Shown here: positions 1 through 43,346 of the stretch, one piece after another
Position numbering within the stretch: the first letter of the stretch is position 1
Layout of the letters: the number at the start of each line of letters is the position of its first letter
Origin: Muribaculaceae bacterium Zag1
GTDB lineage: Bacteria > Bacteroidota > Bacteroidia > Bacteroidales > Muribaculaceae
Assembly: GCA_002633115.1 (NCBI GenBank)
Contig: NWBJ01000070.1
Span: 53,515-97,562 of the forward strand
Length of the DNA stretch: 44,048 bases
Reading direction: 5' to 3'
Notes under the pieces: generated by a model
What the model saw: the letters and a program-made list of their open reading frames with translations, nothing else
What the model was told of the DNA's origin: nothing
The model's database searches: none
Position numbers and translations under genes: made by a program

Positions 1-20
1 CCAAAAACCAAAAACCAAAG
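1..20. repeat. CCAAAAACC-type spacer repeat before hisC
   Basis: An A/C-only tract of CCAAAAA and CCAAAG units. The same style of tract stands before hisA (3161-3191), before aroB (6463-6490) and between two minus-strand genes (13855-13883). It is cut by the window edge. Its role is unknown. Confidence 0.6.
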
Positions 21-43
21 GCCCTAAGACGCCCCTCGCCTGG

Positions 44-1060
44 GTGCGTCCCAATATACGGGCTCTGGCCCCATACTCGACTGCACGCGATGATTACAAG
101 GGCGGTGCTATCGACACTTGGCTCGATGCCAACGAGAGTCCTTACCCGTCGGGCGTTAACCGCTACCCTGACCCGCGCCAAAAGGCCCTGAAAAAGCAAA
201 TCGCTCAGCTCAAGGGTGTTACACCCCAGCAGACCTTTATCGGCAATGGCAGCGACGAGGCTATCGACCTTTGCTACCGCATATTTTGCCGTCCCGGCAA
301 GGACAATGCCGTGGCAATCACCCCGAGCTATGGCATGTATCGCGTGGGGGCCGACATCAACGACATCAAGCTGCGCGAGGTAGAACTGAATCCTGATTTT
401 TCTCTGCCGGTCGACCGTCTGCTCGAGGCCACTGACGAGAATACGCGCCTGATGTGGATATGCTCGCCCAACAACCCTACCGCCAACGCCTTCCCCATCG
501 CCCAGATCGAGGAATTGCTTGAGCGATTCGATGGCATGGTGATTGTCGATGAGGCCTATGTCGATTTTTCTGACCAAGGGTCGATTTTGCCGCTGCTCGA
601 CAAGCATCCCAATCTGATTGTGCTGCAGACCCTCTCCAAGGCTTGGGGCATGGCCGCTCTGCGCTTGGGCCTCGCCTTTGGGGCAGAGCAAGTGATGGAG
701 CTGTTTGGGCGCGTCAAATATCCTTACAATATCAGCGCCATAGTGCAAGACACGGTGGCTCGCCTGCTCGAATCTGAGGACAAAGCCGCACACGTGGCAG
801 AAATTAAGGCCGAGCGCGACCGCCTGGCCGAGGCTATCAAGCCGCTGCCCTGCGTGCTTGAGGTCTATCCGTCGGATGCCAATTTCCTGCTCGTCAAGGT
901 CACCGACCCAATCGTCATCTATGACCGCCTGATTGATGAGGGCGTGATCGTGCGCGACCGCTCGCGCATGCCCCTCTGCCACGGCTGCCTGCGCATCACC
1001 ATCGGCACCCCCCACGAAAACAAAAAAGTAATCTCCATCCTCTCCACCCTCCCTGGATAG
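44..1060 (+). CDS. hisC: Histidinol-phosphate aminotransferase
   Basis: A PLP-dependent class I/II aminotransferase that converts imidazole-acetol phosphate and glutamate to histidinol phosphate. The N-terminus RPNIRALAPYSTARDDYKG is the usual HisC opening. WLDANESPYP, the GNGSDEAIDL stretch, CSPNNPT, the VIVDEAYVDF aspartate/tyrosine segment and LQTLSKAWGMAALRLG (Schiff-base lysine in SKA) all match the family. The length, 338 residues, is slightly short. The start is a GTG at 44. The frame stays open to the window edge without an ATG, so a start further upstream, giving a few more N-terminal residues, cannot be excluded. The stop TAG lies in a GGATAGCG unit that recurs in the spacer. The next gene is hisB on the same strand. 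Identification is secure; only the start is uncertain. Confidence 0.95.
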   Translation: MRPNIRALAPYSTARDDYKGGAIDTWLDANESPYPSGVNRYPDPRQKALKKQIAQLKGVTPQQTFIGNGSDEAIDLCYRIFCRPGKDNAVAITPSYGMYRVGADINDIKLREVELNPDFSLPVDRLLEATDENTRLMWICSPNNPTANAFPIAQIEELLERFDGMVIVDEAYVDFSDQGSILPLLDKHPNLIVLQTLSKAWGMAALRLGLAFGAEQVMELFGRVKYPYNISAIVQDTVARLLESEDKAAHVAEIKAERDRLAEAIKPLPCVLEVYPSDANFLLVKVTDPIVIYDRLIDEGVIVRDRSRMPLCHGCLRITIGTPHENKKVISILSTLPG

Positions 1061-1126
1061 CGCCCCCTGGCCGCATAGCGGACCCTGCTGGATAGCGGCT
1101 ACTGTGGGGCGCCACTTGGTGGCGTC
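1057..1126. repeat. GGATAGCG spacer repeats plus small hairpin (hisC-hisB)
   Basis: Three ATAGCG units (two GGATAGCG and one GCATAGCG) occur between 1057 and 1098; the first supplies the hisC stop codon. They are followed by an imperfect GGCGCCAC/GTGGCGTC hairpin around 1107-1126. No RNA gene or T-tract terminator is visible, so this looks like an internal operon spacer. Confidence 0.5.
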
Positions 1127-1157
1127 CGTCCCCTCTTCCCCTATAAATCCCAATAAG

Positions 1158-2312
1158 ATGAAAACAGCCCTATTTATAGATCGCGATGGCACTATCCTGG
1201 TTGAGCCACCCGTTGACTACCAAGTAGATAGCTACGAAAAATTTGCCTTTGTGCCCGATGCCATCTCGGGCCTCAAGGCCCTGGCTGCCCTCGACGATTA
1301 CGAGCTGGTGCTCGCCACCAACCAAGACGGCCTGGGCACCCCGGCCTTTCCCATGGAATCATTCCAAGGACCCCACGACCTGATGCTGCACACTCTGCGC
1401 GGCGAGGGCGTGGAATTTGACGACCAGCTAATCGACCCCACCATGCCCGACGAGAATGCGCCCACGCGCAAACCGGGCACCGGCATGTTTGGCAAATACC
1501 TCTCTGGCCAATACGACCTGGCCAACAGCTATGTGATTGGTGACCGCATCACCGACATGCAGCTCGCCAAGAATCTTGGCGCCCGTGGCATCATGCTCTG
1601 CAACCCCGAGGTTGGAGAAATGACCCCCGAGGACGGCCTAAAGGCCGTCAAGGATGCCGGCCTCGATGACACGGTCGACCTGGTAACCGATTCCTGGCTC
1701 GAAGCAGCCGACTTTGTGCGCATCGGCAAGCGCCGCGCCACTGTCAAGCGCACAACCCGCGAGACCGACATCGAGGTATCGATCGACCTCGACGGCCGCG
1801 CCGACGGCGACTGGAAAATCTCGACTGGTCTGCATTTCCTCGACCACATGCTCTCGCAAATCTCCCACCACGGCGGTGTGGCCCTCTCAATCAAAGCCAA
1901 GGGCGACCTCGAGGTCGACGAACATCACACCATGGAGGATGTCGCCATCGTGCTTGGCGAGGCCATCGACAAGGCTCTCGGCAGCAAGGTGGGCATCGGC
2001 CGCTACGGCTTCGCCTTGCCTATGGACGACTGCGCAGCTCTGGTGCTGCTCGACTTTGGCGGACGCATTGATTTTGAGTGGGATGCAGAATTTAAACGCG
2101 AATACGTGGGCGATGTGCCCACCGAGATGCTGAGGCATTTCTTCATGTCGCTCTGCGCCGCCTCGAAGTGCAATCTGCAGATTTCCGCCAAGGGCGAAAA
2201 TGAGCATCACAAGGCCGAGGCCATCTTCAAGGCCTACGCCCGCGCTCTGCGCATGGCCCTCGCCCGCAAAAAATTTGAATACGACCTGCCCTCCAGCAAA
2301 GGGGTGCTATAG
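1158..2312 (+). CDS. hisB: Bifunctional histidinol-phosphatase / imidazoleglycerol-phosphate dehydratase
   Basis: A fusion of two histidine-pathway enzymes, 384 residues. Residues 1-170 are a HAD phosphatase: FIDRDGT gives the nucleophile D8 and general acid D10, and GDRITDMQLA is the acidic motif III. Residues about 192-384 are imidazoleglycerol-phosphate dehydratase, with HFLDHM (about 227), HHTMEDVAIVLGEA (256) and HHKAEAIFKA (350) supplying the metal-binding His and Glu residues. The ATG at 1158 is chosen because MKTALFIDRDGT begins exactly as the HAD fold does; the longer open frame from 1104 only adds spacer-derived residues. The Cys/His zinc loop of the E. coli HisB phosphatase is absent here: the equivalent stretch is IDPTMPDENAPTRKPG. 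The gene sits between hisC and hisH, in normal Bacteroidales order. Confidence 0.97.
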   Translation: MKTALFIDRDGTILVEPPVDYQVDSYEKFAFVPDAISGLKALAALDDYELVLATNQDGLGTPAFPMESFQGPHDLMLHTLRGEGVEFDDQLIDPTMPDENAPTRKPGTGMFGKYLSGQYDLANSYVIGDRITDMQLAKNLGARGIMLCNPEVGEMTPEDGLKAVKDAGLDDTVDLVTDSWLEAADFVRIGKRRATVKRTTRETDIEVSIDLDGRADGDWKISTGLHFLDHMLSQISHHGGVALSIKAKGDLEVDEHHTMEDVAIVLGEAIDKALGSKVGIGRYGFALPMDDCAALVLLDFGGRIDFEWDAEFKREYVGDVPTEMLRHFFMSLCAASKCNLQISAKGENEHHKAEAIFKAYARALRMALARKKFEYDLPSSKGVL

Positions 2313-2314
2313 CC

Positions 2315-2393
2315 GGGTAGGAATCCTAGGCAGCATAGGAGTTCTACAGGGCTGGGGTCTCTAGGATGCCTAGGCTGCCTAGGATTCCTACCC
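2315..2393. repeat. 20-bp perfect inverted repeat between hisB and hisH
   Basis: Arms at 2315-2334 and 2374-2393 are exact reverse complements (GGGTAGGAATCCTAGGCAGC and its complement) around a 39-base loop that itself contains CCTAG and CTAGG words. The transcript could form a strong hairpin two bases after the hisB stop. There is no T-run after the right arm, so a Rho-independent terminator is unlikely. Confidence 0.85.
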
Positions 2394-2422
2394 TATCAGC
2401 AATGCCTAAAATTAAAATTATT

Positions 2423-3025
2423 ATGGTAGCTATAATTGATTATGATACGGGTAATCTGCGGTCGGTGATCAATGCTTTCAATAGATTGGGAGCCGAGATT
2501 ATCGTCACCGCTGATCACCAACAGATACTGCAGGCCACGCATGTGGTGCTGCCGGGCGTGGGCGAGGCATCATCGGCAATGGAGAAATTGCGCACACGTG
2601 GCTTGGATACCCTCATACCCACTCTCACCCAGCCCACTCTGGGCATCTGCATCGGCTTGCAGCTGATGTGCAAGAGCAGCGCCGAGGGCGATGCCAAGTG
2701 CATGGGCATATTCCCAACTGAGGTGAGGTTTATGTCGCCAGCGGCCGAGGTGGGCCTGAAGATACCCCATGTGGGCTGGGACAATGTCAACTGGACCCTC
2801 CCCGAGCCGCCCATCGCCAAGGATATCCCCGAGGGTGCGCATTTCTACTATGTGCACTCTTATGCCGCGGCCCTATGCCCCGACACCATCGCCACCACCG
2901 ACTACGGAGCCCCATTCAGCGCCGCCCTCCAGCACCGCAACTTCATCGGCGTCCAATTCCATCCCGAAAAAAGCGGCCCCATCGGCGAACAGCTGCTCCG
3001 CAACTTCCTAACCCTAAAACCGTAA
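2423..3025 (+). CDS. hisH: Imidazole glycerol phosphate synthase, glutaminase subunit
   Basis: A class I glutamine amidotransferase that hydrolyses glutamine and channels ammonia to HisF. With the ATG at 2423 the protein is 200 residues, the normal HisH length. It opens MVAIIDYDTGNLRSV and has the catalytic triad C76 (LGICIGLQ), H180 and E182 (VQFHPEKSG), plus the LPGVG oxyanion-region motif near residue 43. The same frame is open from 2366, but those residues come from the right half of the hairpin spacer and an AT-rich leader, so the internal ATG is preferred. The stop TAA at 3023-3025 lies inside the first unit of the 33-bp tandem repeat. The partner hisF is two genes downstream, with hisA between. 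Confidence 0.96.
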   Translation: MVAIIDYDTGNLRSVINAFNRLGAEIIVTADHQQILQATHVVLPGVGEASSAMEKLRTRGLDTLIPTLTQPTLGICIGLQLMCKSSAEGDAKCMGIFPTEVRFMSPAAEVGLKIPHVGWDNVNWTLPEPPIAKDIPEGAHFYYVHSYAAALCPDTIATTDYGAPFSAALQHRNFIGVQFHPEKSGPIGEQLLRNFLTLKP

Positions 3026-3163
3026 GGACATAAAACCATAAGGGCATAAGATGCGTAAGGACATAAAACCATAAGAACACAAGATGCGTAAGGACATAAA
3101 ACCATAAGCACATAAGTTGCGTAAGTACTTAAGTCCTTATGTCCCTTATGTCCTTATGGTCCA
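3021..3163. repeat. 33-bp tandem repeat (three units) with inverted tail
   Basis: Units at 3021-3053, 3054-3086 and 3087-3119 share the core CGTAAGGACATAAAACCATAAG with a few substitutions in the last third. A fourth unit begins at 3120, then turns into CTTAAGTCCTTATG-type sequence, the inverted form, to 3163. The hisH stop is in unit 1. The period is a multiple of three, which explains an 11-residue repeat seen in a spurious minus-strand frame. Confidence 0.9.
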
Positions 3164-3191
3164 AAAGCTAAAAACCAAAGACCAAAAACCC
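3161..3191. repeat. CCAAAAACC-type spacer repeat before hisA
   Basis: CCAAAAGC, TAAAAACC, AAAGACC and AAAAACCC units end two bases before the hisA ATG, so any ribosome-binding signal of hisA would have to lie in this A/C-only tract. No Shine-Dalgarno sequence is visible. Confidence 0.6.
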
Positions 3192-3193
3192 AG

Positions 3194-3898
3194 ATGACGA
3201 TTATTCCTGCTATTGATATTATTGATGGGCATTGCGTGAGGCTCTCTCAGGGCGATTACGACAAGGCCAAGACATATTACCGCGACCCGCTCGATGCGGC
3301 CAAGCAGTTTGAGGACTGGGGCCTAAGCCGCATACACATCGTGGACCTCGACGGCGCCAAGGCAGCCCAGCCCAAAAATCTGGCAGTGCTTGAGCGCATA
3401 GCCTCGCAGACAAGCCTTGAGCCCCAATTTGGCGGCGGCATCAAGTCGACCGACTCGCTGCGCAGCGTATTCTCGGCTGGCGCCTCGCGCGCCATCGGCG
3501 GCAGCGTGGCTGCCCTGCAGCCCGAGATGTTTGAGGAGTGGCTGCGCCTATTCGGTGACGAGCGCATCATCCTCGGCGCCGACATCAAAGAGGGGCAGAT
3601 TGCCGTAAAGGGCTGGCTCGAAAAGAGCGCCGCGACCCTCGACGACCTGCTGCAGCGCTTTATGCGCCTGGGCTTGTCGCAAGCCATCGTTACCGACATA
3701 GCCGTCGATGGCATGCTTTGCGGACCCGATGTGAAATTCTACGCCGAGCTGCAAAAGAAATACCCCACGGTCGACATCACCGTGAGCGGCGGCATCTCCT
3801 CGCAAGCCGACCTCGACGCCCTAGCCTCAGCCGGCCTCCGCTCCGCCATCGTCGGCAAAGCCATCTACGAGGGTAGAATCAAACTAAATGAAAAATGA
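3194..3898 (+). CDS. hisA: Phosphoribosylformimino-5-aminoimidazole carboxamide ribotide isomerase
   Basis: A TIM-barrel isomerase that carries out the Amadori rearrangement of ProFAR to PRFAR, the substrate of HisF/HisH. The 234 residues fit the family. MTIIPAIDIIDGHCVRLSQGD contains the catalytic D8; ILGADIKEG contains D130, the second catalytic aspartate. QFGGGIKS and VSGGISS are the two phosphate-binding glycine loops. The stop codon is formed within an AATGAAAAATGAATAATG tract, the start of the next spacer repeat. The ATG at 3194 directly abuts the CCAAAAACC tract. The call is secure from catalytic residues and operon position. Confidence 0.97.
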   Translation: MTIIPAIDIIDGHCVRLSQGDYDKAKTYYRDPLDAAKQFEDWGLSRIHIVDLDGAKAAQPKNLAVLERIASQTSLEPQFGGGIKSTDSLRSVFSAGASRAIGGSVAALQPEMFEEWLRLFGDERIILGADIKEGQIAVKGWLEKSAATLDDLLQRFMRLGLSQAIVTDIAVDGMLCGPDVKFYAELQKKYPTVDITVSGGISSQADLDALASAGLRSAIVGKAIYEGRIKLNEK

Positions 3899-4030
3899 AT
3901 AATGAAAAATGAATAATATCCCTATTCTCCATTTTTCATTTTTCATTTCCCCATTCTCATTATTTTTCAATTTTCATTTCCCATTTTTCATTTCTCATTC
4001 TCATTATTTTTCATTTTTCATTTTTAATTT
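3886..4030. repeat. ATGAAAAATG spacer repeat, direct then inverted (hisA-hisF)
   Basis: A direct ATGAAAAATGAATA tract (3886-3918) is followed by about 100 bases of its reverse-complement form (CATTTTTCATT, with T/C variants). The transcript could form a long AT-rich hairpin. The direct part overlaps the hisA stop; the inverted part ends just before the hisF start. Confidence 0.85.
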
Positions 4031-4034
4031 AATT

Positions 4035-4784: not shown

Positions 4785-4837
4785 GCAGCTCAGCCCACGC
4801 GCGTCAGCCGCCTCGATTCCAATCTATTCCCCACCAT

Positions 4838-4912
4838 GCGTCAGCCACCTCGAGAATTCTCGACAATTCTCGAGAGCTCTCGATAATTCTCGACCCCCTC
4901 GATAATATCGAT
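4838..4912. repeat. TCGAGAATTCTCGA palindromic spacer element (copy 1)
   Basis: GCGTCAGCC is followed by the 36-bp core at 4848-4883, made of nested palindromes (CTCGAGAATTCTCG, CTCGAGAGCTCTCGA), then AATTCTCGA. The core occurs identically, in reverse orientation, at 9747-9782, also next to GCGTCAGCC. A related GCGTCAGCCGCCTCGATT stands just before at 4801-4818. Confidence 0.9.
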
Positions 4913-4932
4913 TACAATTAATCCAAATAATT

Positions 4933-5547
4933 ATGCTGCAATTTTCTGATCTCAACAGCGCCAAGCAGCCCGATGGGCTGATCCCAGTGATAGTGCAAGA
5001 TGACCTCACCTTGCGTGTATTAATGCTCGGCTACATGAATGCCGAGGCTCTCCTCGCCACCCAGCAGACCGGCAAGGTGACATTTTACAGCCGCACCCGC
5101 CAATGCCTCTGGACCAAAGGCGAAACCAGCGGCAACTACCTCGATGTCGTCTCAATCACCCCTGATTGCGACCGCGACACCCTGCTGATCCGCGCCATCC
5201 CCCAGGGCCCAACCTGCCACACCGGAGCCATCAGCTGCTTCGACTCGGCTTGCAAAAAGTCGGAGGGCTTTATCCGCCAGCTGCAGCAGGTGGTCAAGGA
5301 GCGCCACGAGCAGATGCCCGAGGGTTCATACACCACCAAGCTATACACCAAGGGCGTCAACAAAATAGCCCAAAAGGTTGGTGAAGAGGCAGTCGAGACT
5401 GTCATCGAGGCCGTGCGCCCCGATTTCAGTCGCTATGACTTCATCTACGAGGCCTCAGACCTAATTTACCACCTGCTTGTCCTCCTTGAGGAGCGCGGCT
5501 GCTCCATCTCCGACCTCGAATCCGAGCTCCTCTCCCGCCACAAGTAA
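4933..5547 (+). CDS. hisIE: Bifunctional phosphoribosyl-AMP cyclohydrolase / phosphoribosyl-ATP pyrophosphatase
   Basis: Two early histidine-pathway activities in one 204-residue protein. Residues 1-115 are the HisI cyclohydrolase, with FYSRTRQCLWTKGETSGN, the metal-binding DCDRDTLL and the cysteine-bearing GPTCHTGAISCF. Residues about 118-204 are the HisE pyrophosphohydrolase, an all-alpha MazG-like fold, with GVNKIAQKVGEEAVETVIEA and DLIYHLLVLL. It is the last his gene here; the stop TAA opens an ATGAAAAATG tract. The 148-base gap from hisF contains the TCGAG palindromic element and no recognisable promoter, so cotranscription with hisF is plausible but not shown. Confidence 0.97.
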   Translation: MLQFSDLNSAKQPDGLIPVIVQDDLTLRVLMLGYMNAEALLATQQTGKVTFYSRTRQCLWTKGETSGNYLDVVSITPDCDRDTLLIRAIPQGPTCHTGAISCFDSACKKSEGFIRQLQQVVKERHEQMPEGSYTTKLYTKGVNKIAQKVGEEAVETVIEAVRPDFSRYDFIYEASDLIYHLLVLLEERGCSISDLESELLSRHK

Positions 5548-5595
5548 TGAAAAATGAATAATGAAAAATTAAAAATTAAAAATGAAAAATGAAAA
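5548..5595. repeat. ATGAAAAATG spacer repeat (hisIE-HAD gene)
   Basis: A 48-base tract of TGAAAAATGAATA and TTAAAAATTAAAA words with no inverted partner. It runs straight from the hisIE stop into the ATG of the phosphatase gene, so that ATG may itself have arisen from the repeat. Confidence 0.75.
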
Positions 5596-6366
5596 ATGCC
5601 CATAGATAATCATATCCCCTCCCGGTTCTGTGCCTCGCCGCTTAGCGGCGAGGATCCCATCACCCGCTATCTGCGGCGCACCGGCTACCAGCGCTTTGAG
5701 CCACTAGCGGCTCTAATCGACATGGATGGCACCCTCTACGATTCCATGCCCCACCACGCCGATGCCTGGAAAGCCATGGCCGACAGCGCCGGCATCCCAG
5801 CCGAGAGAGATGAATTTTTCATGTACGAGGGGCGCACCGGGGCCTCGACCATAAATATCCTATTCCAGCGCACCTACGGCCGCGATGCCACCCCCGAGGA
5901 GGCAAAAGAGCTGTACGGCGTCAAGAGCCGCAACTTCCAGGCGATGCCCCCAGTCGACCCCATGCCCGGTGCCGACCAGCTGCTGCGTGAGTTTATGGAG
6001 CATCACATGCGCCTGGTGCTGGTCACCGGCTCGGGCCAGAGCAGCCTGATTTCGCGCCTCGACCACGACTATCCCGGCGCCTTCGCGCCCGATATGCGCA
6101 TAACTGCCGCCAATACCACCCAGGGCAAACCCCATCCCGACCCCTATCTGCGGGCCATGGCCCTGGCCGGCGTCGAGCCTTGGCAGTCGGTAGTACTCGA
6201 GAATGCGCCGCTCGGTGTCGAATCCGGCTTCCGCTCGGGCGCCTTTACGGTGGCTGTCGCCACGGGCCCCATCCCCATCGAGGCCCTCTGGGCTGCCGGA
6301 GCAGATATAGTTTACAATTCAATGGAGCAATGTGCCAATTCCCTCCCAAAATTGTTATTTAGATAA
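5596..6366 (+). CDS. HAD-superfamily phosphatase (beta-phosphoglucomutase-like)
   Basis: A HAD subfamily IA hydrolase, 256 residues. LIDMDGTLYDSMP is motif I, with the two catalytic aspartates about residues 42 and 44. LVTGSGQSS is motif II, GKPHPDPYL carries the motif III lysine, and VLENAPLGVESG is the motif IV region. The cap contains MYEGRTGASTINILFQRTYGRDAT. Substrate unknown; possible roles are sugar-phosphate or metabolite-repair phosphatase. The region from ITRYLRRTGY onward resembles what I recall of Bacteroides homologues. The first 20 residues look extra and are partly encoded by a perfect GC palindrome (5632-5652), but no alternative ATG lies between 5596 and motif I. Its position after hisIE suggests coexpression, not necessarily a histidine role. 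Confidence 0.85.
   Translation: MPIDNHIPSRFCASPLSGEDPITRYLRRTGYQRFEPLAALIDMDGTLYDSMPHHADAWKAMADSAGIPAERDEFFMYEGRTGASTINILFQRTYGRDATPEEAKELYGVKSRNFQAMPPVDPMPGADQLLREFMEHHMRLVLVTGSGQSSLISRLDHDYPGAFAPDMRITAANTTQGKPHPDPYLRAMALAGVEPWQSVVLENAPLGVESGFRSGAFTVAVATGPIPIEALWAAGADIVYNSMEQCANSLPKLLFR
5632..5652. repeat. GC palindrome inside the HAD gene N-terminal codons
   Basis: CCTCGCCGC, a TTA loop and GCGGCGAGG form a perfect 9-bp stem within codons 13-19 of the HAD gene. It resembles a spacer hairpin more than coding sequence and may mark a 5' extension of the gene. Confidence 0.6.
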
Positions 6367-6497
6367 TCCTCCCCTCAAGTTCGATTACTTCGACCTTCCC
6401 TTGCGTTAGCCCACTCGAGCGGCCACGATTTCCACAAGCGGCCACGAGCGCCCTCGAAATAGACCAAAAACTAAACACCAAAAACCAAACACCCTCT
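6367..6497. repeat. Spacer with TCGAGCGGCC words and CCAAAAACC tract
   Basis: This gap before aroB combines CTCGAGCGGCCACGA and its echo GCGGCCACGAGCGCC (6414-6453), related to the word at 41246-41260, with an A/C tract ACCAAAAACTAAACACC (6463-6490). No promoter or terminator was recognised. Confidence 0.5.
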
Positions 6498-9044: not shown

Positions 9045-9061
9045 AGGTCGATGCGGATTCT

Positions 9062-9709: not shown

Positions 9710-9737
9710 ATTAGTGGAGATTTTAAGATGTTATTAT

Positions 9738-9797
9738 CGAGAATTTTCGAGAGCTCTCGAGAATTGTCGAGAATTCTCGAGGCCGAACGGCTGACGC
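9738..9797. repeat. TCGAGAATTCTCGA palindromic spacer element (copy 2)
   Basis: The 36-bp core at 9747-9782 is the exact reverse complement of 4848-4883, and the flanking GCGTCAGCC is also conserved (complement at 9789-9797). In both copies the element precedes a start codon on the same relative strand: hisIE at 4933 and the small LPP20-like gene at 9709. Identity continues past the core for another nine of ten bases. Confidence 0.9.
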
Positions 9798-22217: not shown

Positions 22218-23087
22218 TCAGGGACAAGACCTACTCAGCCATTTAGACAAGAGAGAATCCTTTATAAAGTATCGAGTACCTCGTTTGATAGTTCTATCAT
22301 ATCCTATCACTCCCATGGTGTTCAGTCTCTTGAGATATGCAGTCAAGATATTGGTAGGTAGACCACTCTCTACCCTCATTTCCCGTAATGTCATTCCGGT
22401 ATTGGCTTTACTCAGAGCATTCAGAATCTTTTGAGAATAGGTCGATAAGGAACTATACAAGTCATAATATTGAGAGGCTAAAATGGAAAGAAGACAGTCT
22501 ATATCTTTCTCGGCGTCTGGATTAGTCAGCAGGATGTTTTTTGTAAGATTAAGGGATTGGATTGTGGGCGGCAACAATTTCCAAAGGACTGTAGCACGTT
22601 CCAATTCTTTAGGGTTCTTAAACTGGTCAGATAACACCTCTTCCTTTATAGGATTTAAATAAACTACCTTGAGCCCTTCAAAAAAGGGAGCAGAGTATTC
22701 TGCAATTGCAGGCAAAATGCGATTAGCTGTGGCTATTAACATCGGTGCTCCCTCGTTATATAGAAATCTGCGCAATCGGTATTGCTCTTCGAAGGAGCAT
22801 CGAGTAAGATAAAAATTCCAATCATCGATGAATACGATTGGGTGCTTTTGATCCTCCAATGGCTCTAATATATCCGAAGTGTTAAATAGGAATCTACCAT
22901 CTATCCACAAAGGGTTATGCTCAAAGCAGATTTCATACAACTGTCTGAGCAGGGTAGTTTTGCCTGTCCCTTCAGGTCCGATTATCAATATTGGCTGTGG
23001 AATTTGTGCCCCCACATTATTGGAAATCTCAGACCTGATGGCACTAAAAACATCTTTATGGATATTTACATACTCGGTATGGGCCAT
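22218..23087 (-). CDS. AAA-type ATPase with C-terminal winged helix (second of pair)
   Basis: A 289-residue P-loop ATPase: Walker A GPEGTGKT at 37-44, Walker B IVFIDD at 84-89 and a probable sensor segment MLIATANR near 119-126. The last 70 residues (YSQKILNALSKANTGMTLREMRVESGLPTNILTAYLKRLNTMGVI) look like a winged helix-turn-helix. The ATG at 23087 is chosen because AGGAG stands five bases upstream. A GTG at 23099, overlapping the previous stop as GTGA, is the alternative. It is translationally coupled to the larger ATPase. The resemblance is to Orc1/Cdc6- or archaeal-type ATPases found in mobile and defence-like loci. Function unknown. Codons look AT-richer than the neighbours. Confidence 0.75.
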   Translation of the reverse strand: MAHTEYVNIHKDVFSAIRSEISNNVGAQIPQPILIIGPEGTGKTTLLRQLYEICFEHNPLWIDGRFLFNTSDILEPLEDQKHPIVFIDDWNFYLTRCSFEEQYRLRRFLYNEGAPMLIATANRILPAIAEYSAPFFEGLKVVYLNPIKEEVLSDQFKNPKELERATVLWKLLPPTIQSLNLTKNILLTNPDAEKDIDCLLSILASQYYDLYSSLSTYSQKILNALSKANTGMTLREMRVESGLPTNILTAYLKRLNTMGVIGYDRTIKRGTRYFIKDSLLSKWLSRSCP

Positions 23088-23095
23088 AGTTCTCC

Positions 23096-24256
23096 TCACT
23101 CAACGAATTTGTAATACCACCATTGTTTGAGCAGAGAGGATCGGAAACATCTTATTCCACCTTTTGCTCGCATTATATATCCATCGTGTTCAAGCATATT
23201 GAGTATGAGACTAAGCTGATTGTCAGCATCGTAGGAAGAAAGGCCGGTGTTTAGTGAGAAGATGGCAAATAGTTGATCCCGAGAAAGACCTTCTGCAGAT
23301 TTGCTTAATTCTTTAAGAATAATTTTGGCTCCTGGCTCTTGGCCATTATATTCCGTGAGTCTTTCTCCCCAAGTCCCAAGATCATCACTGCGCACAAGTC
23401 TTTCATAGGCATCATCCACTATTTCTTTGGTTATGCCTTTGCGTGAATTAGGGTAGTCTTTGATATTGGTGAACAGAAGTTGGATGAAATAAGGGACATA
23501 CCATTCTATTTTGTTGAGAATGAAATTTCTTATTTCTTGGTCAATGGGGATTTTTTCTCCCTCTGAGAGGGCTTCAACCAACCCATTGGCTTCTGCATTT
23601 GACAATGCATCAAAGTCAAATGATACCATATCATTGATGGTCATAGACAGGCTTCGGCTGCGAGTAAAATTATGTAATCCCACAGAACCACAAAATATCC
23701 ACCGTATTTTGCTGTTAGTTACTTGTCTTAGACTTCTGAACCAATTAAGGAAAAATTCCGATTCTCTTCTTCCCTCCTCTCTATCAAGTATATTTAGGAA
23801 TAGAGTAAGTTCATCGATTACGATGAGAGTGTCTTTAGAATGGTCTATCACTTCAAATAGTGAAGTATATAGGTTTTCACTTGATTCTCTGTGAGTAAAG
23901 TCAAATTTAACTGGCCCTATACCCTTGATGGCTTCTATCAGTCGGTTTGCCATGCCTCCAACTTTAGTGGCGGCTTCTGACCAAATTCCCGACTTGTCAA
24001 ATTCATTTATTAAGATTTTTAGGAAATCTTCTTGTGTGCGTACTCCTTCTAAGTCAATATATACGCATGACCATCCCAGAGCCTTTTGGTCTTCGATAAG
24101 TCTTTTTGCAAACGAAGATTTACCTATTCGTCTTGGAGCAGATAGCACCAGGGAATGGTTAGTTCTAAGATAATCATGAGCTTGGGAGAGTTCTTTAACT
24201 CTCCCATAGAAATCATCACCCGTAACAGGTGGCCCTACTCTGTTTGATATAGCCAT
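23096..24256 (-). CDS. Archaeal-type AAA ATPase (first of pair)
   Basis: A 386-residue ATPase of the kind often annotated ATP-binding protein (archaeal ATPase/STAND-like). The N-terminus RVGPPVTGDDFYGRVKEL is the usual entry before the P-loop. Walker A APRRIGKSS is at 40-48, Walker B TLIVIDEL at 142-148, and a sensor 1-like region IRWIFCGSVGLH near 184. The C-terminal 90 residues (ILKELSKSAEGLSRDQLFAI, DNQLSLILNMLEHDGYIMRA) look like a winged helix with a DNA- or peptide-reading role. The promoter at 24278-24309 is consensus and overlaps an iterated AT-rich sequence, suggesting tight regulation. It forms a two-gene cassette with the next ATPase. Possible conflict, regulatory or transport-related role; none is shown. 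Confidence 0.8.
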   Translation of the reverse strand: MAISNRVGPPVTGDDFYGRVKELSQAHDYLRTNHSLVLSAPRRIGKSSFAKRLIEDQKALGWSCVYIDLEGVRTQEDFLKILINEFDKSGIWSEAATKVGGMANRLIEAIKGIGPVKFDFTHRESSENLYTSLFEVIDHSKDTLIVIDELTLFLNILDREEGRRESEFFLNWFRSLRQVTNSKIRWIFCGSVGLHNFTRSRSLSMTINDMVSFDFDALSNAEANGLVEALSEGEKIPIDQEIRNFILNKIEWYVPYFIQLLFTNIKDYPNSRKGITKEIVDDAYERLVRSDDLGTWGERLTEYNGQEPGAKIILKELSKSAEGLSRDQLFAIFSLNTGLSSYDADNQLSLILNMLEHDGYIMRAKGGIRCFRSSLLKQWWYYKFVE

Positions 24257-25589: not shown

Positions 25590-25618
25590 GGCCCTTATGT
25601 ATCTTATGTACTTACGGT
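25590..25618. repeat. GTACATAAGATACATAAGG spacer tract at the kinase stop
   Basis: Read on the minus strand, GTAAGTACATAAGATACATAAGGGC begins within the last codons of the histidine kinase and supplies its TAA stop. It belongs to the same word family as 3021-3163. Confidence 0.55.
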
Positions 25619-26848: not shown

Positions 26849-26861
26849 ACTCAATGACTAA

Positions 26862-26933
26862 ATGAAACAAACCCTACAGGGTAGTAAGGAATGATTGAAC
26901 TCTTAGGCTAAGTGAAATAACCCCTACGGGGTA
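26862..26933. repeat. REP-like units, two copies
   Basis: Units at 26862-26884 (ATGAAACAAACCCTACAGGG) and 26912-26933 (GTGAAATAACCCCTACGGGG) carry the CCCCTACGGGG palindrome or a variant behind a TGAAAYAA lead. They match the four units at 31543-31727. They lie between the kinase start and the AsmA-family stop. Confidence 0.8.
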
Positions 26934-26944
26934 TTCTTTCCAGC

Positions 26945-26989
26945 CTTACTTATTACTTATTACTCATTACTTATTACTCATTACTTATC
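26945..26989. repeat. GTAATGAGTAATAA spacer repeat at the AsmA-family stop
   Basis: On the minus strand, AAGTAATGAGTAATAAGTAATG words begin within the last codons of the AsmA-family gene and provide its TAA stop. The tract has stop codons in all three frames. Confidence 0.75.
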
Positions 26990-30406: not shown

Positions 30407-30480
30407 TTACTTTTGACTTTTGACTTTTGACTTATCACTTATCACTTTTGACTTTTGACTTTTGACTTTTGACTTATCAC
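30407..30480. repeat. GTCAAAAGT / GTGATAAG spacer repeat
   Basis: A plus-strand tract of ACTTTTGACTTTTGACTTATCAC words fills the gap between two minus-strand genes. On the minus strand it begins GTGATAAGTCAAAAGTC, and the TGA in that word is the stop codon of the DUF5715-type gene. Confidence 0.8.
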
Positions 30481-31460: not shown

Positions 31461-31542
31461 AATCCCTGTATATATTTCGGTACAATCCATAGTTATTAAA
31501 AATACTAAGTAAGGGCTCAATTAAGCTTCATTCTCAGATGTA

Positions 31543-31727
31543 CCCGGATGGCTACCCCGTAGGGGTTGTTTCATCTAGTATACAGGTTAACACCCGGATG
31601 GCTACCCCGTAGGGGTTGTTTCATTCTAGTGCTCAGAATGTTAGTGAAACAACCCCTACGGGGTAGGAGGGGGAGGGGTATGGGGCCATAGCTAGATGAA
31701 ATAACCCCTACGGGGTAGCCATCCGGG
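31543..31727. repeat. REP-like array, four units in two orientations
   Basis: Two 32-base units in one orientation (31543-31574, 31593-31624) share CCCGGATGGCTACCCCGTAG followed by GGGTTGTTTCAT. Then come a truncated inverted unit (31645-31666) and a full inverted unit (31696-31727, one substitution). Each has the ACCCCGTAGGGGT palindrome. Paired inversion is typical of REP/BIME elements. The rest of 31287-31900 is an AT-rich leader with no gene I can support. Confidence 0.85.
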
Positions 31728-31900
31728 CGACCTCCAGATTTATCTTCTAATTGACCCATTACTTATTGTGATTATGTTAAAAAATCAATGTTGCAAATGT
31801 TAATTGGTCAATTGTGCCGACAAACCAAACTGTACAGATAAAACCTTTCTTTATTTGATTCGTTTCACTAATACAAACATAACCAAAAACTATCTTATTT

Positions 31901-33061: not shown

Positions 33062-33074
33062 AGTAACAAGTAAT

Positions 33075-33108
33075 AGTGAATAGTGAATAACGGCTATCAC
33101 TATTCACT
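33075..33108. repeat. AGTGAATAGTGA / TCACTATTCACT inverted repeat
   Basis: Twelve-bp perfect arms with a 10-base loop just after the OmpA stop. They are part of a TAATAGTGAATAGTGAATAA tract rich in stop codons, in the style of the other spacers. A true terminator follows at 33151. Confidence 0.75.
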
Positions 33109-33150
33109 TTTCACTAAAAAGACACGTCTGTTCAATTACATAGTTAGTTT

Positions 33151-33184
33151 AAGGGCGCTCCCTGTGACAGGAAGCGCCCTTTTA
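33151..33184 (+). terminator. Rho-independent terminator after the OmpA-family gene
   Basis: AAGGGCGCTCCCTG pairs with CAGGAAGCGCCCTT (one mismatch, three-base loop) and is followed by TTTT at 33180-33183. It suits the plus-strand gene ending at 33061. Confidence 0.88.
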
Positions 33185-33256
33185 ATGAGAAATGAATAAT
33201 GAAGAATGAAAAATGAAGAATTATTTGAGGATTCTTCATTCTTCATTTTTCATTAT
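33183..33256. repeat. ATGAAGAATGAAAAATG spacer repeat with inverted partner
   Basis: A direct AATGAATAATGAAGAATG tract is followed, after ATTATTTGAGGA, by TTCTTCATTCTTCATTTTTC, the inverted form. It lies between convergent transcription units, with a terminator on each side, and may fold into a hairpin on either strand. Confidence 0.75.
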
Positions 33257-34966: not shown

Positions 34967-34971
34967 GGTCG

Positions 34972-35808: not shown

Positions 35809-35856
35809 ATTACCTTAGTTTATTATTAGATGGTTGTAAACTCGGATAATCAGGGA

Positions 35857-37101: not shown

Positions 37102-37109
37102 TAATTTTG
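37102..37109 (+). promoter_or_regulatory. Candidate -7 box of the nqr operon
   Basis: TAATTTTG matches the -7 consensus, 27 bases before the nqrA ATG. No TTTG lies at -33, so the promoter is only half supported. Confidence 0.5.
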
Positions 37110-37136
37110 CGCTTATAAATAAGTATAGCAATTATT

Positions 37137-38465: not shown

Positions 38466-38467
38466 AC

Positions 38468-38570
38468 CAATGAAAAAAAATGAAAAGTTAAAAATGAAAA
38501 ATGAAAAATCCCCTCAGTAGTCATTTTTTATTCTTCATTATTCATTTTTCATTATTCATTATTCATTTAA
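38468..38570. repeat. ATGAAAAATG spacer repeat, direct then inverted (nqrA-nqrB)
   Basis: Direct AATGAAAAAAAATGAAAAG words (38468-38508) are followed by inverted CATTATTCATTTTTC words (38521-38570). This is the same arrangement as between hisA and hisF. The transcript could form a long AT-rich hairpin inside the operon. Confidence 0.85.
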
Positions 38571-38594
38571 ATTTTAACCCTTAACATAATAATC

Positions 38595-39809: not shown

Positions 39810-39812
39810 GCC

Positions 39813-40526
39813 ATGAATAAGCAAAGCAATGTCTACACCATTATATATATAATAGTGCTTGTGGCAGTGGTGGGCACAGCCTTGGCCTTCATCTCGATGG
39901 GCCTCAAGGAGCGCCAGACCGCAAATGTCAACGCCGACAAGATGCGTCAAATCTTGGCCTCGGTGCATATCACCCCCGACAAGAGCCAGATCATACCCGA
40001 CTTTGAGAAATACATCACCGCTCAGCTGGTGGTCAACTCTGAGGGCCAGCAGATCGGCACCGACGCATTCTCAATCAATGTCGAGGAGCAAAGCAAAATC
40101 TCAGACCCGGCCAAGAGGGAACTCCCGGTGTATGTGTGCACCCTCGCCGACGGTTCAGTCAAGTATATCCTGCCTGCCTACGGCTCTGGCCTGTGGGGCC
40201 CGATTTGGGGCTACCTGTCGGTCGATTCCGACGGCTCTACACTCTACGGAGCATACTTCGGACATGAGGGCGAGACCCCGGGCCTCGGCGCCGAGATCGA
40301 GAAACCGATCTTCTGCGACCAGTTCAACTCAAACCTCCACATGTTCAAGAACGGCCAGTTCCATCCCATCGAGGTGGTCAAGGCCGGGCAGAAGCCAGCC
40401 AACCCCGACGCCGACTATGTCGATGGCATCTCGGGCGGCACTATCACCAGCAAGGGCGTGGGTGCTATGATCGACAATTGCATAGCTCCCTACCAAGCAT
40501 TCCTCAACTCACTCTCAAACAATTGA
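39813..40526 (+). CDS. nqrC: Na+-translocating NADH:quinone reductase subunit C
   Basis: A 237-residue subunit with one N-terminal membrane helix (about 8-30) and a periplasmic FMN-binding domain. The flavinylation motif is DGISGGTITS at about 204-213, with T210 as the likely FMN attachment site. YGSGLWGPIWGYLSV and FGHEGETPGLGAEI are the conserved FMN-domain stretches. It passes electrons within the complex. It follows nqrB by three bases and precedes nqrD by four. An ApbE-type flavin transferase is needed for FMN attachment and is not in the window. Confidence 0.96.
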   Translation: MNKQSNVYTIIYIIVLVAVVGTALAFISMGLKERQTANVNADKMRQILASVHITPDKSQIIPDFEKYITAQLVVNSEGQQIGTDAFSINVEEQSKISDPAKRELPVYVCTLADGSVKYILPAYGSGLWGPIWGYLSVDSDGSTLYGAYFGHEGETPGLGAEIEKPIFCDQFNSNLHMFKNGQFHPIEVVKAGQKPANPDADYVDGISGGTITSKGVGAMIDNCIAPYQAFLNSLSNN

Positions 40527-40530
40527 AGCC

Positions 40531-41157
40531 ATGGCAGAGAAAATAAACTACAAGGACGTCTTGTTCAATCCTTTCTCAAAGAACAATCCTGTGGTAGTGC
40601 AGGTGCTGGGTATCTGCTCGGTGCTCGCTGTCACTGCCAAGCTCGCGCCCGCCATCGTGATGGGCATTTCGGTGATCGCCGTGTTGGCATTTGCCAACGT
40701 GATCATCTCACTCTTGCGCAACACCATCCCTACCAACATCCGCATCATCGTGCAGCTTGTGGTTGTGGCCGGCTTGGTGGTCATCGTCAGCCAGGTGCTC
40801 AAGGCTTTCGCCTACGATGTGAGCGTACAGCTGTCTGTGTTTATCGGCCTGATCATCACCAACTGTATCCTGATGGGTCGCCTCGAAGCTTTCGCCATGG
40901 GCAATAAGCCTTGGCCGGCATTCCTCGACGGCATCGGCAACGGCATCGGTTACACTATCATATTGGTGATTACCGGTTTCTTCCGCGAGCTGCTCGGCAG
41001 CGGCACTCTGCTCGGATACCAAATCATTCCGCAATGGTGCTATGACCACGGCTACGCCAACAACGGCCTGATGATCCTGCCCCCGATGGCCCTCATCGTG
41101 GTGGCCTGCATCATCTGGGTACAACGCTCATACAACAAAGACCTGCAAGAACCGTGA
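40531..41157 (+). CDS. nqrD: Na+-translocating NADH:quinone reductase subunit D
   Basis: A 208-residue integral membrane subunit with about six helices. NPFSKNNPVVVQVLGICSVLAVT at the start, RNTIPTNIRIIVQLVVVAGLV and FVGLIITNCILMGRLEAFAM-like IGLIITNCILMGRLEAFAMG are NqrD signatures; the latter carries the paired-cysteine region shared with NqrE. ELLGSGTLLGYQI is also typical. The TGA stop is followed immediately by TGAAAAATGAAAAATG repeat, and nqrE is 139 bases downstream. Confidence 0.95.
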   Translation: MAEKINYKDVLFNPFSKNNPVVVQVLGICSVLAVTAKLAPAIVMGISVIAVLAFANVIISLLRNTIPTNIRIIVQLVVVAGLVVIVSQVLKAFAYDVSVQLSVFIGLIITNCILMGRLEAFAMGNKPWPAFLDGIGNGIGYTIILVITGFFRELLGSGTLLGYQIIPQWCYDHGYANNGLMILPPMALIVVACIIWVQRSYNKDLQEP

Positions 41158-41265
41158 TGAAAAATGAAAAATGAAAAATGAGTAATGGCCTCGATTCCCA
41201 TCGATTTTCTCGATTAGTCGCTCGGCCTCAATAATCTCGATTACCTCGAGCGGCCTCGAAAAAAA
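41158..41265. repeat. Compound spacer between nqrD and nqrE
   Basis: An ATGAAAAATG tract (41158-41184) is joined directly to TCGAT/TCGAG words (41190-41262), including CATCGATTTTCTCGATTAG and CTCGAGCGGCCTCGA. It places two of the spacer families in one gap. No promoter is evident. Confidence 0.7.
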
Positions 41266-41296
41266 ATAGCTATTACTCTCCTAATTCACAGATTAT

Positions 41297-41914
41297 ATGG
41301 AAAATTTCAATTTATTCATACGGTCGATTTTTGTCGACAACATGGTGTTTGCCTACTTCCTGGGCATGTGCTCATTCTTGGCCGTTTCCAAGAATGTCAA
41401 GACTGCCTTCGGACTTGGCGTTGCCGTGACTTTCATGTTGGTGATCACCCTGCCCATCAACTACTTGCTGCAGAACTATGTGCTCAAGGCTGGCGCCCTC
41501 ACCTGGCTTAGCCCCGACTATGCCGATGTCGACCTCAGCTTCCTCTCGCTCATCATGTTTATCGCTGTGATTGCCTCGATGACCCAGCTCGTCGAGATGG
41601 TGGTCGAGAAATACAGTCCCTCGCTTTATGCCTCGCTCGGCATCTTCCTGCCCCTGATTGCTGTAAACTGCGCCATCCTCGGCGGTTCGCTCTTCATGCA
41701 GCAGCGCGACTTCCCGTCGATTGTCACCGCCGTATGCGCCGGTGGCGGCTGGGGTATCGGCTGGCTCCTGGCTATCACTGCCGTGGCTGCCATACGCGAG
41801 CGCCTCGCCACTTACAGCGACATCCCCAAGCCCCTGCGCGGCATTGGCATTACTTTTATTGTCACTGCCTTGATGGGCATAGCTTTCATGAGTTTCTTAG
41901 GTATAAAATTATAA
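41297..41914 (+). CDS. nqrE: Na+-translocating NADH:quinone reductase subunit E
   Basis: A 205-residue membrane subunit homologous to NqrD, with about six helices. The start MENFNLFIRSIFVDNMVFAYFLGMCSFLAVSKNVKTAFGL is the NqrE signature with the first conserved cysteine, and FLPLIAVNCAILGGSLFMQQRDF holds the second. NqrD and NqrE share an inter-subunit iron cofactor bound by such cysteines. nqrF begins three bases after the stop. A longer upstream gap than elsewhere in the operon suggests a separate unit with nqrF, or a processing point. Confidence 0.96.
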   Translation: MENFNLFIRSIFVDNMVFAYFLGMCSFLAVSKNVKTAFGLGVAVTFMLVITLPINYLLQNYVLKAGALTWLSPDYADVDLSFLSLIMFIAVIASMTQLVEMVVEKYSPSLYASLGIFLPLIAVNCAILGGSLFMQQRDFPSIVTAVCAGGGWGIGWLLAITAVAAIRERLATYSDIPKPLRGIGITFIVTALMGIAFMSFLGIKL

Positions 41915-41917
41915 GCG

Positions 41918-43228
41918 ATGGCAATCAACTACATACAAGCTTATCTGCTGGCCTCGGTGCTTTCTCGCACCGTGCTCACCGGTGTGGGCATTTTCTTGCT
42001 CATCACCCTGCTATTAGTGGCTATATTGCTGATAGCCAAGCATTACCTGGTACAGAGCGGCGATGTCACCATCAATGTCAATGGCGACACCGACATCAAG
42101 GTCGAGTCAGGCAAGAGTCTGCTCTCGGCCCTGGCCGACAAGAATGTGTTCCTGCCCAGCGCCTGCGGCGGCAAGGGCTCGTGCGGACAGTGCAAGGTGC
42201 AAGTGTTTGAGGGCGGAGGCGAGATCCTCCCCACCGAGACTGTGCATTTCAGCCGCAAGCAAGTGCAAGACCATTGGCGCCTCGGCTGCCAAGTCAAGGT
42301 CAAGGGCGACATGAAGATTGGCGTGCCCGCATCGGTGCTCGACGTGCGCGAGTGGGAGTGCGAGGTCATCTCAAACAAGAATGTGGCCACATTTATCAAG
42401 GAGTTTATCGTACAGCTGCCCCCGGGCGAGCACATGGACTTCCTGCCCGGCTCCTATGCCCAGATCAAGATTCCGCCTTATTCGATGGACTACGACAAGG
42501 ACATCGACAAGGCCCTCATCGGCCCCGAGTATCTGCCCGCTTGGGAGAAATTCGGCCTGTTCTCGCTCAAGTGCCGCAACGATGAGACCACGCTGCGCGC
42601 CTACTCGATGGCCAACTACCCGGCCGAGGGCGACCGCTTCATGCTCACCGTGCGTATCGCTACGCCGCCGTTCAAGCCGAAGCCCCAGGTTGGATTCCAG
42701 GATGTGATGCCGGGTATCACCTCGAGCTACATCTTCTCGCTCAAGCCGGGCGACAAGGTGATGATGAGCGGCCCTTACGGAGACTTCCACCTTATCCTCG
42801 ACAGCAAGAAGGAGATGATGTGGATTGGCGGTGGCGCCGGCATGGCTCCTCTGCGCTCCCAGATCATGCACATGACCAAGACCCTCAAGTGCACCGACCG
42901 CGAAATGCACTACTTCTACGGTGCCCGCGCCCTCAACGAGGTGTTCTATCTCGACGACTTCTTGGCTATTGAGAAGGAGTTCCCCAATTTCCACTTCCAC
43001 TTGGCTCTCGACCGTCCCGACCCGGCAGCCGATGCCGCTGGCGTGAAGTACACCCCGGGATTTGTGCACCAAGTGATTTACAACACCTACCTCAAGGACC
43101 ACGATGCGCCTGAGGATATCGAGTACTATATGTGCGGGCCCGGCCCGATGAGCGCCGCCGTCAACCAGATGCTCGACAGCCTCGGCGTCGACCCCGAGAA
43201 CATCCACTACGACAACTTCGGCGGCTAA
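41918..43228 (+). CDS. nqrF: Na+-translocating NADH:quinone reductase subunit F
   Basis: The NADH-oxidising subunit, 436 residues: one N-terminal helix (about 20-42), a 2Fe-2S ferredoxin-type domain and an FAD/NADH reductase domain. Cluster cysteines C83, C89 and C92 lie in SACGGKGSCGQCKV, and C124 in RLGCQVKV. FAD binding is at RAYSMANYP (about 226); NAD binding is at GGGAGMAPLRSQI (about 307) and MCGPGPM near the C-terminus, with the end sequence YDNFGG matching the family. It completes nqrABCDEF. A 33-bp perfect inverted repeat lies just downstream. Confidence 0.97.
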   Translation: MAINYIQAYLLASVLSRTVLTGVGIFLLITLLLVAILLIAKHYLVQSGDVTINVNGDTDIKVESGKSLLSALADKNVFLPSACGGKGSCGQCKVQVFEGGGEILPTETVHFSRKQVQDHWRLGCQVKVKGDMKIGVPASVLDVREWECEVISNKNVATFIKEFIVQLPPGEHMDFLPGSYAQIKIPPYSMDYDKDIDKALIGPEYLPAWEKFGLFSLKCRNDETTLRAYSMANYPAEGDRFMLTVRIATPPFKPKPQVGFQDVMPGITSSYIFSLKPGDKVMMSGPYGDFHLILDSKKEMMWIGGGAGMAPLRSQIMHMTKTLKCTDREMHYFYGARALNEVFYLDDFLAIEKEFPNFHFHLALDRPDPAADAAGVKYTPGFVHQVIYNTYLKDHDAPEDIEYYMCGPGPMSAAVNQMLDSLGVDPENIHYDNFGG

Positions 43229-43236
43229 CCCACTCG

Positions 43237-43346
43237 AAACGTAAGCACGTAAGCTTTACGTAAGCACACCTAAGATGATTTTAATCAAACAAAATAAAAA
43301 ATTTCCCTTCTGAGTGTGCTTACGTAAAGCTTACGTGCTTACGTTT
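43237..43346. repeat. 33-bp perfect inverted repeat after the nqr operon
   Basis: Arms at 43237-43269 and 43314-43346 are exact reverse complements around a 44-base AT-rich loop. Each arm is built of GTAAGCACGTAAGC words and is itself nearly palindromic (ACGTAAGCTTTACGT). It starts eight bases after the nqrF stop. It could act as a long hairpin that stabilises or ends the nqr transcript, though the long loop and only a short TTTT at 43344-43347 argue against a classical terminator. Confidence 0.9.

Follow-up and report, generated by a model that had tools for sequence, protein, structure and literature searches.

The stretch of DNA examined here, the window, is 44 kb on contig C70 of the 4.46-Mb draft genome of Muribaculaceae bacterium Zag1 (G000). 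By Pfam it encodes HisC, HisB, HisH, HisA, HisF, HisIE, a HAD hydrolase and AroB on the his side, and in the remainder a HATPase_c kinase, a DUF5715 protein, OmpA, TonB/ExbD/ExbB and Nqr subunits. An AsmA-type protein is DUF748-like, with a Pfam score below the cut-off. The spacers between these genes contain tandem arrays of short words, and it is the placing of these arrays at the stop codons of genes that concerns us. The words are mostly seven letters long and mostly contain stop codons, and at gene ends their sense strand is rich in A and purines. Genes were called with our own codon-usage script, whose starts are unreliable and whose stops are firmer, and which skips some open reading frames (ORFs) of the window (22218-24256 and 43412-44038). 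Arrays were detected with Tandem Repeats Finder (TRF), and word families were located with loose regular expressions that were controlled on reversed sequence.

By TRF, the his operon has arrays in most of its spacers, and two nqr spacers have them as well. The hisC/hisB spacer has (CTG)GATAGCG words (1053-1098, + strand) and the hisH/hisA spacer a 33-bp unit of CGTAAGGACATAA words (3021-3132, +); in both the stop, TAG at 1058-1060 for hisC and TAA at 3023-3025 for hisH, lies in the first unit, as a preliminary description of the window had said. An antisense arm (CTTATGTCCTTATG; 3128-3162, − strand) opposes the hisH array, and CCAAAAA words stand immediately 5' of the hisA ATG (3161-3190, +). 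An AATGAAA array (3886-3917, +) runs in the sense direction across the hisA stop (3896-3898) and encodes the tail of HisA, -NEK followed by the stop. This stop too had been assigned to the first unit, which holds for a unit of 14 bp, but as heptamers it falls in the second. An antisense AATGAAA arm (3930-4030, −) precedes hisF. Another AATGAAA array (5546-5598, +) spans the entire hisIE/HAD spacer from the stop (5545-5547), on which it begins as described, to the called ATG. The words of the hisB/hisH spacer (CTAGGATGC/TCCTAGG, 2361-2390, +) and of the hisF/hisIE spacer (CTCGAGAATT, 4849-4906) are palindromic; the former are not anchored at the stop and the latter lie in mid-spacer. CCAAAAA words are found again immediately 5' of the aroB start (6463-6493, +).

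Elsewhere in the window, the AsmA/DUF748-like gene (stop at 26981) ends in a GTAATRA array (26946-26988, −) and the DUF5715 gene (stop at 30477) in a GTGATAA/GTCAAAA array (30409-30480, −), each with the stop in the first unit. The kinase stop (25604) is inside the start of an array of CATAAG words (25594-25614, −), but in the second CATAAG-type word and not, as had been thought, in the first. At nqrD an ATGAAAA array (41157-41181, +) starts on the stop (41155-41157), in agreement with the earlier account. Other arrays stand a little way off. The GAATAGTG inverted arms (33072-33116) had been placed at or next to the stop of the OmpA gene; they are near it, but lie about 10 nt 3' of it and do not abut. 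Sense and antisense AATGAAA arms in the nqrA/nqrB spacer (38476-38568) are 10 nt past the nqrA stop, ACGTAAGC arms with an inverted copy (43239-43344) are about 10 nt past that of nqrF, and inverted AATGAAA arms (33184-33254) lie in the middle of a spacer between convergent genes, with no stop contact. The gaps do not each have a family of their own, as had been supposed. A few families recur: AATGAAA at hisA/hisF, hisIE/HAD, nqrA/B, nqrD/E and 33184-33254, CATAAG/CGTAAG at hisH, the kinase and nqrF, and CTCGAGAATT at hisF/hisIE and at 9733.

To place the window in a wider context we used a 444-kb sample of G000 (the window and four contig pieces, with 376 kb of called coding DNA) and, as replicate, a 320-kb sample of a sister genome, G014, which is 83-98% identical in DNA to G000 over the main compared pieces. 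The G000 sample has 139 intergenic arrays, compared with one after base-shuffling of every spacer, and 40 in coding sequence, although called coding sequence is 5.5 times longer. A period of 7 or a multiple of it up to 42 is found in 66 of the 139; periods of 8-10 and 16-18 are also present. Both the number of units and the families vary, and fixed ends or lengths are not seen in this sample. Arrays are present in 83 of 265 tandem and 8 of 26 convergent intervals, and make up 10.3%, 13.4% and 6.0% of the intergenic bases of tandem, convergent and divergent intervals respectively. The statement that most spacers hold iterated words is true of the window (16 of 24 spacers of at least 20 bp), but not of the tandem spacers of the whole sample (83 of 206). 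Three tandem copies of a 52-bp unit that extends from stop to ATG are found at one G000 locus (L092, contig C45, 8344-8500), and it looks as though the entire intercistronic spacer had been duplicated.

The arrays begin at stop codons far more often than expected by chance. Counting only array-stop pairs with room to move, an array edge lies within −20 to +6 of the stop in 47 of 129 pairs in G000, where random placement gives 17.4 ± 3.7 (reached in 0 of 5000 simulations), and G014 gives the same peak (31 of 105, with 12.6 expected; 0 of 3000). The stop association noticed in the preliminary description is supported by these counts. A stricter test took the lags from 4 to 12, each held fixed and counted from the stop, and required 18 or more matches in 21. 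Anchoring at lag 7 was found at 18 of 318 gene ends in G000 and 14 of 219 in G014; it was zero at stops for periods 4-6 and 8-12, and zero in coding windows and in shuffled flanks. Where the gap is at least 110 bp, periodicity at the stop is seen for 20 of 251 gene ends, and at +60 for 7 of the 251 (p = 0.016). At starts, array edges are depleted in G000 (5 of 127, with 14.7 expected). The arrays reach on average only 2.9 nt (G000) or 3.2 nt (G014) upstream of the stop, whereas entry at random points and in random frames would give 9.7 or 8.7 nt. The array begins at the stop, so the stop usually lies in its first unit, rather than an overrunning array supplying the first in-frame stop. A minority do overrun the gene, as in HisA and the -NEK tails.

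Association with stops is a property of particular families. For the three families found at stops (ATGAAAA, the GTAATAA type and the CATAAG type) the ratio of sense to antisense is 74:2 in the two genomes together. ATGAAAA within −20 to +10 of the stop is 25:0 in G000 and 24:0 in G014, with antisense copies further downstream; the GTAATAA type is 7:0 and 3:1, and CATAAG/CGTAAG 10:0 and 5:1. AATGAAA, GTAATAA, CATAAGGA and ACGTAAGC have stops in every sense frame and in no antisense frame. GTCAAAA is the converse, with stops in no sense frame and in all three antisense frames, and it has five sense and no antisense copies within 14 nt of stops, the nearest antisense copy being 19 nt away. CACGGATTA was not found within −20 to +10 of any stop, its positions being 11 nt or more past stops, and the palindromic CTCGAGAATT and TCCTAGG have no clear positional preference. 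CCAAAAA is the only family among those tried that favours starts, with 9:0 sense to antisense within 30 nt of starts in G000 and 3:0 in G014. For this family the reversed-sequence control is not clean (15 v 8; 6 v 4); CCAAAAA/CCAAAGACC words (window 1-19, 3161-3190 and 6463-6493, and sample loci) look like a start-side counterpart to the stop words. Reversed sequence gives a clean control for CACGGATTA and for CTCGAGAATT, and is well exceeded by AATGAAA and TCCTAGG. It is imperfect for the GTAATAA pattern and, in G014, for the CATAAG pattern, loose expressions which reversed AATGAAA arrays can match, and for these two families the positional counts therefore carry the argument.

Many stop-anchored arrays have a complementary arm downstream. 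In a loose test of two units, made with no chance control, an arm was present for all 18 arrays at convergent stops (nine in each genome, each region entering twice, once per stop) and for 24 of 56 at tandem stops: 16 of 33 for ATGAAAA, 8 of 16 for the CATAAG type and 0 of 7 for the GTAATAA type. Some arms enclose GC-rich cores (C45|11, C34|88). By an expression that favours word-like units, stop-bearing units make up 246 of 254 in sense arms and 202 of 221 in antisense arms.

The arrays have opened operon junctions that are packed in relatives, those of the his operon included. The five his gaps of the window are 97, 89, 168, 136 and 148 bp with the caller's starts (43, 53, 168, 10 and 148 bp with the longest ORFs). 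In relatives the medians are −4, −4, −4, −19 and 11 bp (n = 70, 74, 70, 69 and 63 of 79 loci), and gaps of at least 100 bp occur at 2, 2, 5, 4 and 7 loci in the same order. HisB and HisIE end as they do in relatives. HisA is about eight residues shorter, both in the window and in L001, a metagenome-assembled genome (MAG) named ‘Bacteroidales bacterium U_126944’ that is 92-95% identical to the window across the shared his region; the HisA tail is array-coded in both, from a sense array in one case and an antisense array in the other, and the hisA stop itself is part of the array. After L001, the next matches to the window are MAGs named Alistipes, Rikenellaceae or Bacteroidaceae. The L001 hisB/hisH spacer has words of the same family as the window, and a 46-bp stretch of its hisF/hisIE spacer matches window 9737-9782 at 98%. 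NEK, from in-frame AAT GAA AAA TGA, is the most frequent C-terminal tripeptide in both samples (5 of 318 in G000 and 6 of 219 in G014, where 0.05 and 0.01 are expected), some of these genes being orthologous to each other.

Compared stop by stop with G000, G014 has sites that are filled, sites that have changed and sites that are empty. At the counterpart of the kinase G014 has CGTAAGC words, and at that of the AsmA/DUF748-like gene GTCAAAA words; the nqrA/nqrB arms are present in both. Opposite the window's nqrD array lies an empty site, where the short nqrD/nqrE spacer carries a GGAG that resembles a Shine-Dalgarno sequence. The difference between the genomes at C45|10 is exactly 14 bp, or two units. 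This clean difference and the short overhang at stops support growth from 3' ends, which the preliminary description had offered as one possibility. Among 57 reciprocal orthologs (at least 85% protein identity) one, C45|13, was left out because its alignment at the C terminus was short. Of the remaining 56 ends, 36 have no stop word in either genome, eight have the same, five have different words and seven have one in a single genome. Omitting palindromic and CCAAA words leaves 16 ends by hand count, with six the same, five of different sub-family and five in one genome only. Four of the five ‘different’ ends are related sub-families, and C34|66, one of the five, is alike by eye; C34|67 is labeled CATAAG in the ortholog table and is actually a GTAATAA array. 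Of the 12 pairs that are swapped or one-sided, 4 have a changed stop codon, compared with 5 of the 36 array-free pairs (p = 0.20).

The main word is restricted in its distribution. Allowing two mismatches, three units of AATGAAA match 802 times in G000 (control 95), 668 times in G014 and 32 times in a third genome of the genus (G038), and there are 0-2 matches in the remaining 46 of the 49 genus genomes. With one mismatch, 8 of 297 genomes of the family and 31 of 395 of the phylum have matches. Besides G000, 29 of the 30 phylum genomes have one to five, and one from another family (G609) has 38. In six other Bacteroidota genomes, at loci preselected for AATGAAA matches and with ORFs of at least 120 aa as proxy for genes, 13 of 49 arrays lie in the sense direction at an ORF stop and none in the antisense direction (G124 4/13, G289 1/13, G609 5/11, G603 1/4, G164 2/4 and G601 0/4).

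Heptamer repeats have been noted in bacteria for decades, with no accepted origin or role. The preliminary description knew of no element family of this kind, but heptamers at or over stop codons have been published. In the passages cited here, Rehm et al. (2015; PMC4692102) describe GGGAATC repeats in Xanthomonas and GGGGA(C/T)T repeats in Nostoc/Anabaena that are mostly intergenic and follow ORFs, on the coding strand; most are 0-50 bp past the stop, a count that includes all stop-overlapping repeats. Their length and sequence vary between relatives, and a role in phase variation was judged unlikely; three heptanucleotides of Calothrix are also mentioned. The arrays in G000 and G014 resemble those described there in lying near the stop on the coding strand. 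They differ from that description in that the words are A-rich, mostly bear stops and begin on the stop codon, that several families are present and that a complementary arm is frequent; and unlike the G-tract words reported in those passages, AATGAAA, GTAATAA, CATAAG, ACGTAAGC and GTCAAAA are not G-quadruplex words. The relevant parts of MacGregor (2015; PMC4679880) report TAACTGA direct repeats in marine Beggiatoaceae, some Cyanobacteria and five Bacteroidetes. These are intergenic, with stops in all three sense frames, a likeness shared by our main words, and 13 sets overlap the upstream stop; but as described there most sets lie just 5' of start codons and a single word dominates, whereas here the anchor is the stop, several words coexist and, among the families tried, only CCAAAAA favours starts. 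Two tandem copies of TAACTGA were found nowhere in the 444 kb of G000 or the 320 kb of G014. PMC4679880 and PMC4692102 also cite the long simple sequence repeats (LSSR) of Mrazek et al. 2007, for which polymerase slippage was proposed, and the citing passages do not describe the gene-end grammar that the present arrays have.

The filamentous cyanobacteria reportedly have intergenic tandem arrays of heptanucleotides, with several words per genome (the short tandemly repeated repetitive, or STRR, sequences said to go back to Mazel et al. 1990), and our arrays are of this STRR/LSSR type in that 7-bp tandem units dominate and are mainly intergenic. Repetitive extragenic palindromic (REP) sequences and bacterial interspersed mosaic elements (BIME) are less similar, since unit number and families vary here and there is no conserved palindromic unit of fixed length. 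In a literature search mostly outside subscription journals we found no paper on A-rich, stop-anchored, family-switching heptamers. The arrays are a strongly patterned variant of the intergenic heptamer repeats already reported in other bacteria. The lineage is an unusually clean case: a given site may be filled, changed or empty in the sister genomes, genus-mates almost lack the main word, and position and strand follow a strict grammar. This makes the question of heptamer origin testable. Tightly coupled operon junctions can open, and repeats can write new protein tails.

We consider that the arrays arise by a recent, lineage-restricted and mostly neutral spread of words dominated by period 7, an explanation to which we give about an even chance of being right. 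What the comparisons provide is the excess of arrays that begin at stop codons, the fixed strand, the frequent downstream complementary arm, the turnover of sub-family and presence, the opened operon junctions and the array-coded protein tails. On this explanation short words would nucleate on a stop codon, or be captured by one, and then extend into the spacer, and slippage of units would lengthen the array. Template switching or gene conversion at short TAA/TGA matches might carry families from one locus to another, and fold-back copying could generate the antisense arms. The site just past the last sense codon would tolerate arrays, with purifying selection removing those that enter coding sequence or crowd starts. 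Any terminator-like effect would be secondary.

A number of observations weigh against this explanation. Ten of 22 divergent intervals, where there is no stop, also bear arrays, and the depletion at starts is absent in G014 (8 of 91, with 9.6 expected). Bulk counts do not exceed reversed sequence for the GTAATAA type (7 v 27; 20 v 24), nor for CATAAG in G014 (12 v 13). Units lacking a stop are fewer in sense arms (8/254) than in antisense arms (19/221; p = 0.016). Local slippage alone cannot place one word at dozens of stops, and the step that spreads it is one that we infer. An origin of the words as iterated stop/start or stop/Shine-Dalgarno junctions was tried and rejected, being weakly compatible for ATGAAAA only: that word ranks 8 of 8060 7-mers at relatives' stops, in a set biased by repeated his loci, with GTAATAA at 274, CGTAAGC at 1103, GTCAAAA at 1671 and CATAAGG at 2584. 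None of the four gene families tested (Y1_Tnp, RVT_1, Rho and SbcD) tracks the arrays. Of the 49 genus genomes 33 have Y1_Tnp, and most of these are array-free; RVT_1 has no match in G014, and loss of Rho is rejected as a cause because both array-rich genomes have it. Loss of SbcD was discarded likewise, 17 of the 49 genomes being over the cut-off, both array-rich ones included. This hairpin nuclease (TIGR00619) looks patchy in the genus, where some drafts are incomplete.

Several other explanations were weighed. The arrays might be 3'-end hairpins recruited by selection, the A-rich 5' and U-rich 3' arms of (bidirectional) terminators or of stems that stabilize mRNA. Intrinsic terminators are purine-rich first and pyrimidine-rich later, and the arrays share this polarity; the arm present at every convergent array and the GC-rich cores between certain arms fit as well. 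Yet more than half of the tandem arrays are armless, arrays are located inside the his and nqr operons, and in gaps of 20-300 bp convergent intervals are not significantly richer than tandem ones (8/26 v 32/172, p = 0.19; 8/28 v 18/91, p = 0.43). The role in mRNA folding suggested earlier gains nothing from folding scores, with a median z of −2.1 for array ends (n = 62, both genomes) against −2.5 for array-free ends of similar length (n = 80, the first met; gaps of at least 90 bp follow 160 gene ends in G000 alone). We regard recruited hairpins as possible but unlikely. A little harder to sustain, and in our view improbable, is survivorship only, whereby arrays land or grow anywhere and those that survive are past the last sense codon or supply a stop. 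The lack of strict arrays in coding control windows, the start-side depletion in G000, and HisA, with its lost residues and array-coded stop, and the array-coded -NEK tails are what this would give. It predicts far longer overhangs than the 3 nt or so observed, the depletion is not repeated in G014, and antisense ATGAAAA directly past an intact stop should be tolerated but has a count of zero in both genomes.

Selection for stops in three frames, as insurance against read-through, is consistent with the frames of AATGAAA, GTAATAA, CATAAGGA and ACGTAAGC and with the rarer loss of stops from sense arms, and the latter may reflect weak selection for stops. However, the supply of stops is probably not the driver, since GTCAAAA, with no stop in its sense frames, has the same place and orientation (5:0, few cases) and antisense arms keep the words. 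The words GGGAATC and GGGGATT, in the published passages on Xanthomonas and Nostoc, also lack stops, and AATGAAA is missing or nearly so in 46 of 49 genus genomes. We find this selection very unlikely. The role in translation termination raised earlier is not favoured, because GTCAAAA, a word that lacks stops, shows the polarity too, on small numbers. A mobile family resembling REP sequences or miniature inverted-repeat transposable elements (MITE), carried by a transposase, would explain identical families at many loci, the inverted arms and the 98% match of the L001 stretch to another locus of the window. The lack of fixed ends or lengths, and copies of Y1_Tnp, the sole transposase family tested, that do not track arrays (five in G000, two in G014, none in G038 and 0-4 elsewhere) make it highly improbable. 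Finally, a directed process might write or swap heptamer tracts at stops. Orthologous genes would then be given different tracts, each joined at their shared last sense codon or no more than a few codons from it, and the new tract could re-supply the stop. If so, the gene 3' end would be a site at which cassettes are exchanged, with independent rewriting of the same word in unrelated Bacteroidota. The frequency of stop-codon change is suggestive at most, and because of its p value and the relatedness of the sub-families we think such a process quite unlikely. The idea that overlapping ATGA start/stop sites form a ‘ribosome ladder’ was dropped, as called starts within arrays are unreliable and convergent genes are as array-rich. 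Arrays running from a stop to a called start do exist, at hisIE/HAD and at three called pairs in G014.

Three further features were noted. The genomes of G000 and G014 are 4.46 and 4.1 Mb, compared with 1.8-2.9 Mb for the other 47 of the genus; the arrays were rejected as the cause of this enlargement, as they make up about 10% of intergenic bases. At 22218-24256 of the window two ATPase-like ORFs overlap by 4 bp and have weak AAA_22 and nSTAND-like matches. A dispersed element with a ACCCCGTAGGGGT-like palindrome and TTGTTTCATCTAG/TGAAACAACCCCTA flanks is present around 31500-31800 and at 26860-26940, in several copies in direct and inverted order, and similar copies are found in other spacers and in G014.

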